Below are positions 34,737 to 62,750 of a stretch of 64,000 nucleotides of DNA, in pieces (positions within the stretch are counted from its first letter, which is position 1; every line of letters begins with the position of its first letter). The notes beneath the pieces are model-generated. The model was given only the letters and a program-made list of their open reading frames with translations, did no database searches and had not been told where the DNA came from. Source of the stretch: Clostridiales bacterium (GTDB taxonomy: Bacteria > Actinomycetota > Coriobacteriia > Anaerosomatales > SLCP01); NCBI GenBank assembly GCA_018333995.1, contig JAGXSG010000007.1:62001-126000 (forward strand). Direction: 5' to 3'. The position numbers and the translations under genes are program-made.

Positions 34737-36182
34737 ATGCTCGCGGTCGATCTGTTGGTCTTACTCCCGCTCGCAGGCGCGATCGCGGTTGTGGTGATTG
34801 GCGCACGCGCGCCTCGTTTTGCGCGCGTGATCTCGCTGTGCGTGTCCTTTGGACCGGCGCTTCTGCTCGCCTCACTCGCGCCCCACTGGTTGCTTGATGG
34901 AACGGCTGTTGTGGGGACCGCGATACCGACCGACGCCTTTTCGTTCTGGTCGCTTCGCATCGACGGGATGAGCGCGCCGTTGCTTGCGCTTGGCGCCCTG
35001 CTCGGCCCGGTTGCGGTGCTTGCATCGTGGAATGTCGAGAAGCGGGCCGTCGCGCACCACGCGCTTCTGCTCGGCCTGCAAGCTGCGATAGCCGGCGTCT
35101 TTCTTGCCGCTGACATCGTGCTCCTCTATGTGTTTTGGGAGGCTGTGCTGATCCCGATGTACTTCCTCATCGGCGTGTGGGGCCACGAGGGGCGAAAGCA
35201 CGCCGCGATGAAGTTCTTCATCTACACCTTCGCGGGGAGCGCCCTCATGCTTGTCGGCATTCTTGTCGCGATTTTCCAGACGGGCCAGACCTCGATTGAA
35301 GCCATTGTCGGATCGGCCGGGAGCATCTCCGATCCGGCACTTGTGTTTTGGCTGATCGCCGCGGGCATGCTCGTGAAGATTCCCGCCGTCCCGCTGCATA
35401 CGTGGCTTGCCGACGCCCATGTGGAGGCGCCGACAGCCGGTTCCATCCTGCTTGCGGGCCTTCTGCTCAAGATGGGCGGATATGGTTTCATGCGTGTCGC
35501 GATCCCGATCGCGCCAGACGTGTTTATCGACGCGCGTGGGGCACTCGCCATCCTCGGCGGCATTGGAATCGTGTACGGGGCATCCCTCGCGTTCGCGCAG
35601 ATTGATTTGAAGCGCCTCATTGCGCTATCGAGCGTTTCGCACATGGGATTCGTGCTTCTTGCCATCTCATCTGGGACCGAGAACGGCTATCTCGCCGCCA
35701 TGCTTGTCATGGTGAGTCACGGCCTCATCGCGCCTCTGCTCTTCCTGCTCGCCGGGCAGCTCTACGAGCGAACCGGGACCCGTAGCATGGAGCGCTTCGG
35801 AGGTCTTGGCGTCACCATGCCGAGGTGGGCTGCGCTCTTCACGTTTGGCGCGCTTGCCTCACTTGGACTGCCAGGACTTTCCGGCTTTCCCGGGGAGCTG
35901 CTTGCGCTGGTCTCCGCGTTTGGCGCGTGGTCGTACTGGATGGCGCCGGCCGCTGCGGGAGTTGTGCTGGCGGCCGCGTACAACCTTCGCGCGGTTCGCG
36001 AGACGGTTTGGGGTCAGGCGAGCGGGGAGTGGAGCGGGATTGCCGATGTCGGCGTTCGCGATCTTGCTGGCACGCTTCTTCTCGGCGTTGCGATAGTCGC
36101 TGTGGGGGTGTGGCCAGGTGTTGTCACAGGTGCCACTGGCGATGTCTTCCGAGTGCTCGCGTCGATGACGGCGGGTGGATGA
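34737..36182 (+). CDS. nuoM: NADH-quinone oxidoreductase subunit M (antiporter-like)
   Basis: A 481-residue antiporter-like subunit with about 14 helices. The channel residues are visible in VLLYVFWEAVLIPMYFLIG (Glu), AGMLVKIPAVPLHTWLADAH (Lys and His), LLKMGGYGFMRVAIP and KRLIALSSVSHMGFVLLAI. ATG 34737 lies four bases beyond the nuoL stop; the open frame extends back to 34689 inside nuoL but without reason to use it. The end overlaps nuoN by eight bases if nuoN begins at GTG 36175. Confidence 0.93.
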   Translation: MLAVDLLVLLPLAGAIAVVVIGARAPRFARVISLCVSFGPALLLASLAPHWLLDGTAVVGTAIPTDAFSFWSLRIDGMSAPLLALGALLGPVAVLASWNVEKRAVAHHALLLGLQAAIAGVFLAADIVLLYVFWEAVLIPMYFLIGVWGHEGRKHAAMKFFIYTFAGSALMLVGILVAIFQTGQTSIEAIVGSAGSISDPALVFWLIAAGMLVKIPAVPLHTWLADAHVEAPTAGSILLAGLLLKMGGYGFMRVAIPIAPDVFIDARGALAILGGIGIVYGASLAFAQIDLKRLIALSSVSHMGFVLLAISSGTENGYLAAMLVMVSHGLIAPLLFLLAGQLYERTGTRSMERFGGLGVTMPRWAALFTFGALASLGLPGLSGFPGELLALVSAFGAWSYWMAPAAAGVVLAAAYNLRAVRETVWGQASGEWSGIADVGVRDLAGTLLLGVAIVAVGVWPGVVTGATGDVFRVLASMTAGG

Positions 36183-37656
36183 CGTGGAGCAGGTAGCTCT
36201 CATCACGGTTTTCGCTCCGCATATTGCCGCCACGGCGGCGGCCGTCATCGCGTTGGTGTTTGACGCGTTTTCGCGGCGTGGACTTGCGGTAGCGGCCTGC
36301 GCCACGGGTCTTGCCGTCGCCGCGGCACTGTCCGCGCTCGCCGTGGCGCGTCCGGGCTCACTTTCCGGCGACATTGCTGTGAGCGGAGCGGGATTCTCGG
36401 CAGTGGGCACCGTCGTGTTCGCAACAGGCGCGGTGGTGATGCTTGGATCGTGGCGATACTTCACATCCGCCGAGATGGGCGGAGGGCTTGCCGCGCTCGC
36501 CACCGTTGCGCTCGCCGCCGCGGCCGCGCTCTCACACGCTGCTGATCTGCTGATTGTGTTGATTTGCCTGGAGGTGATGGCGGTCGCGAGTTACGCGCTT
36601 GTGTGGTCCGCCCGGACGCCAGCATCCACGGAAGCCGCGATCAAGTTCTTTATCCAAGGCGCGGTCGCGACCGGACTGTTCGTGCTCGGTCTGGCGGTAT
36701 TGTTTGGGTTGTATGGAGCGTCGACGTCGTACGTATCGCTCAACGTCCAGACCCGCGAGATCTCCGGTCAAGGCGTCACCACCGCGTTCGCGCTCCTCGT
36801 AGCGGCTTTCTCCTACAAGCTCGGGGCGTTTCCGTTCCATTCGTGGGCACCTGACGCGTTTGAAAGCGCGCCACCGCACGCCTCGGCGTTGCTGGCGGGC
36901 ATACCTAAACTCGCCGCTGGCGTCGCGATGATGCTGCTATTCCCGCTCGCGGTCTTCTCGCATGTCAACCCAGTGATCTACCTCTGGGTGTTTGGTGCGC
37001 TCGCTGCCGGTTCGATGGCGTTCGGGGTCTTTGGCGGCCTCGTGCAACGTTCCTACACCAGGATGCTTGGGTATTCGGGCGTCGCACACGTTGGCTTCGC
37101 GCTGATTGCGCTCGCAACCGGTCCTCAGGCGATGAACGCGCTAGCGGCGATGCTCATCTTCTACGCGATCGCCGCCGCTGGCGCGTATCTGGCCGCAGGA
37201 TGCGTGCGGGCGTTGCGTCCGGCGTGGGACGGATCGATCGAGGGGATGGCGGGTATTGGCCGCCAGAGCCCGTTGCTCGGGTTCGCCCTTACAATCGCGC
37301 TCTTCTCCCTCGTTGGGATGCCGCTCACCGCCGGGTTCTGGGGTAAATTCCTGCTGCTTGGAGTAGCGGTGTCCGCCGGTCTGTGGTGGCTTGCGCTCAT
37401 CGGCGTGATCGCGTCCGTAGTGTCGTTTGGCTACTACGGCGCGGTGCTGAAGGCGATTTACTTCTCGGCGTCATCCGGTGATGCAGGGAATGCTGGCGAC
37501 GCCGGCGATGCTGAGGCGCTAGTCTGCGAGACAGCCTGTCCTGATAGACCCGCGCTTGCCGCGCTGTTCGTGCTGTCTTTTCTGCTGCTGGCGGCCGGCA
37601 TCGTTCCGCTCGCCACTGGGCTCAGCTGGATAGTCAGGACCCTCACATTTGTCTGA
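36175..37656 (+). CDS. nuoN: NADH-quinone oxidoreductase subunit N (antiporter-like)
   Basis: A 493-residue antiporter-like subunit with about 14 helices and the last gene of the operon. Signatures are LLIVLICLEVMAVASYALV (Glu), SYKLGAFPFHSWAPDAFESAPPHASALLAG (Lys/His helix, in two parts), LGYSGVAHVGFALIA and GMPLTAGFWGKF. Two GTGs, 36175 and 36184, can start it; both overlap or abut the nuoM stop. An unusual short insertion rich in Gly, Asp and Ala (GDAGNAGDAGDAE) interrupts the loop before the last helix, which looks like local codon-repeat expansion. Confidence 0.92.
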   Translation: MDDVEQVALITVFAPHIAATAAAVIALVFDAFSRRGLAVAACATGLAVAAALSALAVARPGSLSGDIAVSGAGFSAVGTVVFATGAVVMLGSWRYFTSAEMGGGLAALATVALAAAAALSHAADLLIVLICLEVMAVASYALVWSARTPASTEAAIKFFIQGAVATGLFVLGLAVLFGLYGASTSYVSLNVQTREISGQGVTTAFALLVAAFSYKLGAFPFHSWAPDAFESAPPHASALLAGIPKLAAGVAMMLLFPLAVFSHVNPVIYLWVFGALAAGSMAFGVFGGLVQRSYTRMLGYSGVAHVGFALIALATGPQAMNALAAMLIFYAIAAAGAYLAAGCVRALRPAWDGSIEGMAGIGRQSPLLGFALTIALFSLVGMPLTAGFWGKFLLLGVAVSAGLWWLALIGVIASVVSFGYYGAVLKAIYFSASSGDAGNAGDAGDAEALVCETACPDRPALAALFVLSFLLLAAGIVPLATGLSWIVRTLTFV

Positions 37657-37719: not shown

Positions 37720-37748
37720 TTGCACCTGCCGGAGTGTCGCATTACAAT
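37720..37748 (+). promoter_or_regulatory. strong sigma-70-type promoter in the nuoN-flgM gap
   Basis: TTGCAC (37720-37725) and TACAAT (37743-37748) are separated by exactly 17 bases, the best consensus promoter in the window. Transcription would begin near 37755, directly before two hairpins. Confidence 0.65.
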
Positions 37749-37754
37749 GTCGTT

Positions 37755-37821
37755 GTGTTGCATGCGAATGCAACCCCTTACCCCTGAGCCTCAAGGTGCC
37801 GGCCTTGGGGCTCAACCTTTT
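37755..37821 (+). ncRNA. candidate small RNA of about 67 nt with C-rich single-stranded region
   Basis: From the predicted start, the RNA would form hairpin 1 (GTTGCAT/ATGCAAC with GCGA loop, 37757-37774), an unpaired C-rich stretch CCCTTACCCCT (37775-37785), and hairpin 2, which is the terminator. This is the layout of small RNAs that pair with Shine-Dalgarno sequences through C-rich unpaired segments. It could instead be a leader that attenuates transcription into flgM. No known RNA family is recognised. The remaining bases of the 302-base gap (37657-37958) hold the sigma-28-like box further on. Confidence 0.4.
37786..37821 (+). terminator. rho-independent terminator
   Basis: GAGCCTCAAGG (37786-37796) pairs with CCTTGGGGCTC (37803-37813) over 11 pairs with one wobble, loop TGCCGG, followed by AACC and TTTT (37818-37821). 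It would end both the nuo operon and the candidate small RNA. Confidence 0.65.
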
Positions 37822-37940
37822 CTGAGCACATCGCTCAAGCCGTGCGGCTCTACTCCAGACACCCAGCCCGCTGACGATGAAAAACCATCCGATTCATAAG
37901 ATATTCATACGGGTTAAGGGTCAAGAAGTTACTGCGCAAA

Positions 37941-37948
37941 GCCGATAC
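37941..37948 (+). promoter_or_regulatory. possible sigma-28 (FliA/SigD) -10 box before the flgM-like gene
   Basis: GCCGATAC matches seven of eight bases of the sigma-28 -10 consensus GCCGATAA. The -35 candidate 15 bases upstream, CAAG, is a poor match to TAAA. The box lies ten bases before ATG 37959, so the mRNA would be nearly leaderless. Confidence 0.35.
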
Positions 37949-37958
37949 GTACCACAGT

Positions 37959-38213
37959 ATGAAAATTTCACGCGAACAAGTCGGGCACGCCGCCCGCTAC
38001 CTGCAAACATCGTCTGGCGCACGGGACACACAAGCGTCGCGCGAGATATCCCCCCAGCTACTTGAGCGTCTTCAAAAACACCTGGAGTCGCTACCTGATT
38101 ACCGCGAGGACCGGATCGAGTCGGCTCGAATGCTGATAGAGGGGCCGCTCCCGCCGCCTCAGGTGATTGCCGAGAGTATGCTCGGCCGGATCATCTCCGA
38201 CAGCATTCGTTAA
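37959..38213 (+). CDS. FlgM-like anti-sigma-28 factor
   Basis: An 84-residue protein. It starts MKISREQV, as FlgM proteins do, has a polar and probably disordered first half, and then the FlgM core: SPQLLERLQKHLESLPDYRE, DRIESARMLIEGP and QVIAESMLGRIISD; the place of the family's IAEKML motif is taken by IAESML. FlgM binds and holds the flagellar sigma factor until it is exported. No flagellar gene lies in the window; the next genes are a YggT-like protein and PilB, so it may regulate type IV pili or a distant flagellar regulon. There is no ribosome binding site; see the sigma-28-like box upstream. Confidence 0.65.
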   Translation: MKISREQVGHAARYLQTSSGARDTQASREISPQLLERLQKHLESLPDYREDRIESARMLIEGPLPPPQVIAESMLGRIISDSIR

Positions 38214-62615: not shown

Positions 62616-62627
62616 CTGCACGCACTT

Positions 62628-62741
62628 TCTTCAGGGCGGGGTGAAAGTCCCCACCGGCGGTCAGAGCCCGCGAACCCCGAAAGGGGTCGACCCGGTTGAA
62701 TTCCGGGGCCGACAGTAACAGTCTGGATGGGAGAAGGAAGG
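62628..62741 (+). promoter_or_regulatory. FMN riboswitch (RFN element)
   Basis: The aptamer is plain: TCAGGGCGGGGTGAAAGTCC, then CCACCGGCGGTCAGAG, CCCGCGAA, a variable stem (CCCCGAAAGGGG), CCCGGTTGAATTCCGGGGCCGACAGTAACAGTCTGGATGGG in four blocks, and GAGAAGGAAGG. In this class FMN binding lowers expression of riboflavin genes. The ribD ribosome binding site (GGAAGG) lies just at the aptamer's 3' edge and no terminator hairpin with a T run follows, so control is probably at translation initiation. Confidence 0.95.
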
Positions 62742-62750
62742 AACGCGCGT

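Follow-up and report, generated by a model that had tools for sequence, protein, structure and literature searches.

A conserved putative small RNA gene with an unpaired C-rich segment in the bacterial order Anaerosomatales

Introduction

Several small RNAs of Gram-positive bacteria act through exposed cytosines. The C-rich regions of RoxS, FsrA and CsfG from Bacillus subtilis bind mRNA targets (PMC8216469), and the C-rich loops of the mycobacterial RNA B11/6C pair with ribosome binding sites (PMC10470900). Here we describe a locus from the Anaerosomatales, a widespread subsurface order that is mostly uncultured and from which two cultivated species have been described (PMC9686372). Its likeness to RoxS and 6C appears to be one of anatomy at best, and by the models tested it is a member of neither family.

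The locus lies in a 64,000-nucleotide stretch of DNA, the whole of which is called the window below. We conclude that it is very probably an independent RNA gene of the order. Our best overall explanation, an independent small RNA gene whose C-rich strand pairs in trans, carries a probability of about 0.6.

Results

Anatomy of the locus

A preliminary description of the window had proposed a promoter, a capped hairpin, an unpaired C-rich segment and a terminator, together giving an RNA of about 67 nt. Reading the sequence and folding it located the promoter elements, the hairpin, the C-rich segment, the terminator and the RNA itself where they had been proposed. The features are as follows.

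36175-37656, plus strand: nuoN, the upstream neighbour; assigned by synteny and a sub-cutoff score to the NCBIfam NuoN subfamily.
37720-37725, plus strand: -35 element TTGCAC, read directly; of 59 loci, about 57 keep TTG and 50 keep C at position 4.
37743-37748, plus strand: -10 element TACAAT; among relatives T1 is kept in 58/59 loci, A2 in 58/59 and T6 in 59/59, with a spacing of 17 in 44/59.
37755-37821, plus strand: small RNA of about 67 nt with predicted ends; fold z-score -5.3; 60 of the 69 genomes searched in the order keep it.
37757-37774, plus strand: 5' hairpin of 7 bp with a GCGA loop (GTTGCAT-GCGA-ATGCAAC); 4 pairs changed on both sides, 97.6% of cells paired.
37774-37813, plus strand: ultraconserved 40-nt core; across 60 loci 33 of its 40 positions do not change, and pairwise identity averages 98%.
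37775-37784, plus strand: unpaired C-rich segment CCCTTACCCC, the proposed seed; TACCCC is invariant in 60 loci, partly conditioned by the search pattern.
37785-37814, plus strand: terminator hairpin with 12 conserved pairs, of which 10 never vary and 2 vary on one side; 100% of cells paired, arms and loop nearly invariant.
37818-37821, plus strand: terminator T tract TTTT, read in the sequence.
37921-37948, plus strand: sigma28-type promoter (TCAAG - 15 - GCCGATAC) that belongs to the flgM-like gene and not to the RNA; the same motif precedes the ATG in nearly all loci.
37959-38213, plus strand: flgM-like gene of 84 aa, in its own transcription unit; the best Pfam match is FlgM, below threshold.

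The predicted RNA folds with a minimum free energy of -32.3 kcal/mol, compared with -18.1 +/- 2.7 for shuffled sequences, and none of 200 shuffles did as well. Within this fold the first base of CCCTTACCCC is unpaired with a probability of about 0.7 and the remaining bases with at least 0.8. The description of the hairpin as GNRA-like holds for the window, but the loop is not conserved: many relatives carry a shorter stem capped by UUCG. In 31 of 60 loci the positions equivalent to 37815-37830, right 3' of the terminator stem, hold C3-5, then 4-11 bases, then G3-5, a possible extra small hairpin of these relatives that the window lacks.

Distribution

Searching with the 131-bp region by blastn found the RNA in 53 of 61 relatives (44 of 48 good assemblies) at 88-100% identity, nearly always as a single copy, and the matched relatives span many families. 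A covariance model built from 40 loci recovered it in 60 of 69 Anaerosomatales genomes, again almost always once. The other 9 have no copy even when 3 mismatches are allowed, and four of them are at least 90% complete; these absences may reflect an assembly gap or true loss. One genome holds, about 17 kb from its intact RNA, a degenerate partial copy on the minus strand (L078 450-627; G008:C62:57522-57566) with 80% identity over 45 nt.

Outside the order, model searches were run with fast filters that very diverged relatives could escape. In the rest of the class Coriobacteriia they gave no convincing copy; the sole weak match (G233, 32 bits) looks like an unrelated terminator and was left uncounted. 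The wider phylum yielded chance matches alone, and two of these (L074 and L075) were read and discarded as such. An exact pattern searched over 85,000 species genomes hit 47 contigs, titled Coriobacteriia, Actinomycetes/Actinobacteria or Anaerosomatales. The naming of the order as Anaerosomatales follows these titles together with the established lineage (PMC9686372). Two matches with odd titles, Aeromicrobium (L110) and Slackia (L129), show the same gene order as the other loci and are probably mislabelled MAGs. The RNA is absent from the collections of viral contigs, plasmids and phages that were searched.

Rfam gave no family matching the locus up to an E-value of 5, and none matching five relatives up to 0.5, so we regard the RNA as a new family. 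Rfam 15 lacks this family, which exceeds the neighbouring proteins in conservation and is present in nearly all members of the order. The 6C model (RF01066) had zero matches in the genome of the window and one weak match in the order, at another locus. This sub-threshold sequence (L077 217-302; G025:C88:23016-23101) scores 39 bits against a cut-off of 47 and has two C-rich loops; it may represent a second C-rich small RNA in one Anaerosomatales genome. Elsewhere in the window an FMN riboswitch lies at 62623-62742 (114.5 bits).

Conservation of sequence and structure

The 40-nt core is almost frozen across many families, which implies many simultaneous constraints. Twenty of its fixed letters belonged to the pattern that fetched some of the 60 loci, and the core is just as invariant in the 40 loci found by blastn. 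The adjacent FlgM-like protein, in contrast, averages 48% identity, and the NuoN proteins of other loci are mostly 37-62% identical to that of the window.

The two hairpins have evolved differently. The 5' hairpin changes in sequence and in length while its pairing is kept: it has either 7 bp and a GCGA loop or 5 bp and a UUCG loop. In both forms the C-rich strand stays unpaired. Changes on both sides of a pair affect 11 cells, compared with 2.5 after shuffling, and only 1 of 500 shuffles equalled the four pairs so changed. The covariation that had been suggested as a check is thus present in this hairpin. Among 39 distinct sequences from many families the invariant pairs of the terminator stem stay fixed; the stem shows no covariation because it hardly varies. 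Terminators conserve pairing rather than sequence. Neither a terminator nor a seed would require two arms and a loop this close to invariant, and a simple model of seed plus terminator leaves their constancy unexplained.

Proposed action and target search

The -10 element mostly ends 9-10 nt 5' of the hairpin. A sigma70-type RNA polymerase, starting about 7 nt past this element, would therefore be predicted to begin the transcript 2-3 nt before the hairpin, which would then shield the 5' end of the RNA. Transcription would stop at the intrinsic terminator and release the 67-nt RNA. The exposed CCCTTACCCC could then act in trans as a pairing strand. Its likeliest partners would be G-rich stretches at mRNA start sites, where pairing would be expected to block ribosome binding, as C-rich small RNAs of other Gram-positives do.

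The anatomy makes such RsaE-like targeting of Shine-Dalgarno sequences plausible, and we lean modestly towards action of the C-rich strand by pairing with mRNAs. We scored the start regions of 1690 genes in a complete genome of the order (G019) and of 518 genes from 534 kb of the window's own genome against the real motif and 60 permuted motifs; genes came from a simple home-made caller, which may have misplaced some starts. Start regions are G-rich and bind the motif better than gene interiors do. In both gene sets their complementarity to the real motif was no better than to the permuted ones. The preliminary statement that many genes in the window have sites able to pair is true in a loose sense: start regions are rich in G, but the window's whole genome has a single full match to AGGGGTAAGGGG, the one antisense to the RNA.

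When 332 orthologue pairs were ranked jointly, the real motif came 3-10 among the 60 permutations for the top few pairs, and beyond these the ranking was not significant. The top candidates, adk and aroA, did not hold up in an independent check against other genomes. Sites comparable to that of adk are confined to the genome of the window, to G019 and the congeneric G030, and perhaps to G024; for aroA, the site is found in the genome of the window alone. The neighbouring genes nuoL/M/N, orf95, pilB and deoB gave no target signal. Two further leads were set aside: an 11-nt match in G019, located at the stop codon of dnaG immediately ahead of rpoD, has a chance expectation of about 1 per genome, and the recurrence of ACCTTGAGGC in the window is explained by Leu-Glu-Ala codons within genes. 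In Escherichia coli small RNAs are reported to be older than their binding sites (Peer and Margalit, PMC4114697), so the absence of conserved targets does not refute pairing with mRNAs.

A partner other than mRNA

The same results bear on another reading, that this is a housekeeping or protein-bound RNA. In that case a dedicated protein would recognise the invariant hairpin and the C-rich strand, or be titrated by the RNA, and the strand would be no mRNA seed. Conserved mRNA targets were not found, the RNA is a single-copy gene throughout the order, and a terminator with almost no covariation and fixed arms and loop would suit recognition by a protein. There is no candidate protein, though, and small RNAs that act by pairing are typically this short and expose a C-rich strand in this way. 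We consider this reading unlikely, while giving it appreciable weight. It is rather doubtful that the sequence of the stem is what a dedicated protein or the ribosome (e.g. at 16S helix 44) recognises. The RNA would then be no ordinary small RNA of seed and terminator but a housekeeping RNA specific to the order, with a new kind of function.

Pairing with 16S rRNA itself would have CCCCTTACC(C) bind the complementary 3' strand of helix 44 (GGGTAAGGGG), with the RNA acting on free or immature 30S subunits. The complement is perfect over 11 nt in G019, and GTAAGGGG occurs in all five Anaerosomatales 16S genes seen. But the same 16S sequence is found in many Coriobacteriales-type members of the class that lack the RNA, helix 44 is normally paired, and a match of 8-11 nt between a C-rich 11-mer and an rRNA operon is not improbable by chance (we estimate 0.1-0.3). 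We therefore think direct action on 16S rRNA highly improbable.

Promoter, neighbours and transcription unit

The promoter of the RNA is conserved at a fixed distance. The pattern TTGC-(16-19)-TAnAAT lies upstream of the hairpin in about 58 of 59 loci, and the mean match to the promoter is 7.8/12, compared with 6.4 +/- 0.1 in shuffled upstream regions. The proposal of a near-consensus promoter with 17-base spacing was correct in its spacing, but the elements themselves are further from consensus than had been thought (-35 3/6, -10 5/6; 8/12 letters), and a mechanical scan missed the promoter.

The gene order nuoL-nuoM-nuoN-RNA-flgM-orf95-pilB-deoB is widely kept. In most loci nuoN directly precedes the RNA on the same strand. 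The hairpin can end nuo transcripts, and one might take it for the nuo operon terminator, or a 3'UTR fragment of the nuoN mRNA, and nothing more. This is most improbable, as the stem, loop and C-rich strand are invariant in sequence, the RNA has its own conserved promoter in the gap, and it is retained where nuoN was not found upstream (L066, L108, L118 and L128).

Less credible still is that the RNA acts in cis on flgM, as a leader or attenuator whose hairpin would be a regulated terminator. The flgM-like gene does lie on the same strand, 100-270 nt 3' of the core, in most loci. Against this, nearly all loci have a sigma28-type promoter, T(C/T)AAG-N~15-GCCGATAC, at a distance of 5-13 nt, in most cases 7-11, from the flgM ATG that follows it, implying a flgM-like mRNA that would be nearly leaderless. 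This separate promoter also speaks, at the level of sequence, against read-through from the RNA into flgM as one mRNA, which had been named as a result that would refute the proposal. Furthermore, the DNA between the RNA and flgM is unconserved, the MFE and centroid structures showed no alternative antiterminator fold, and the RNA is retained where flgM is replaced or was not found (L098, L116 and L119). Two of these loci (L116 and L119) encode a different-looking 64-aa protein in place of the flgM-like gene and keep the sigma28-type promoter.

A side observation concerns G019 (L133-L245) at 866835-868049, 866373-866711, 863853-865328 and 634189, and the window at 37921-38213. Here sigma28-type promoters (TCAAG-N-GCCGATA) precede pilC-like, prepilin-like and adjacent genes as well as the flgM-like gene. 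A sigma factor of the FliA/WhiG type is also encoded. The Anaerosomatales are described as non-motile, with pili-like appendages (PMC9686372). From these sequences, a FliA/FlgM circuit seems to be used for type IV pili in this order.

Finally, a 76-aa ORF crosses the core in the window (frame ..PLTPEPQGAGLGA..), but a small peptide can be dismissed, because the third positions of its codons vary as little as the first two, a nonsynonymous change is among the few seen, one locus (L037) has an in-frame stop and changes in hairpin length shift the upstream frame.

Discussion

The RNA is intergenic, has its own promoter and terminator and contains no conserved ORF. Its own conserved promoter, the separate promoter of flgM and its persistence without nuoN or flgM make it an independent gene rather than a leader or a mere nuo terminator. 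The preliminary description of a small RNA gene is borne out by conservation across the order, a covarying 5' hairpin, the fixed-distance promoter and a conserved terminator; neither the hairpins nor the promoter proved to be lost in relatives.

An RNA with a nearly unchanging core in nearly every member of the order must do an important job, probably the regulation of messenger RNAs by base pairing. Finding its partner would reveal either a regulon at the core of this order or a function that is unfamiliar for an RNA, and since type strains exist the question is experimentally accessible.

Three known kinds of element invite comparison. With RsaE/RoxS (and FsrA and CsfG) of the Bacillales it shares the form of a short Gram-positive RNA that leaves a C-rich segment unpaired and ends in an intrinsic terminator. 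It differs in having no Rfam match, a single C-rich segment in the window copy and a near-invariant terminator stem, and it comes from a different phylum and gene context. Like 6C RNA/B11 (RF01066) it is an Actinomycetota small RNA with a C-rich unpaired stretch, but 6C consists of two hairpins with C6 runs in their loops, whereas here the C-rich run links two hairpins. An ordinary intrinsic terminator would share the GC-rich stem-loop followed by TTTT; in this RNA the sequence of the stem itself is nearly fixed, with 10 of 12 pairs invariant.
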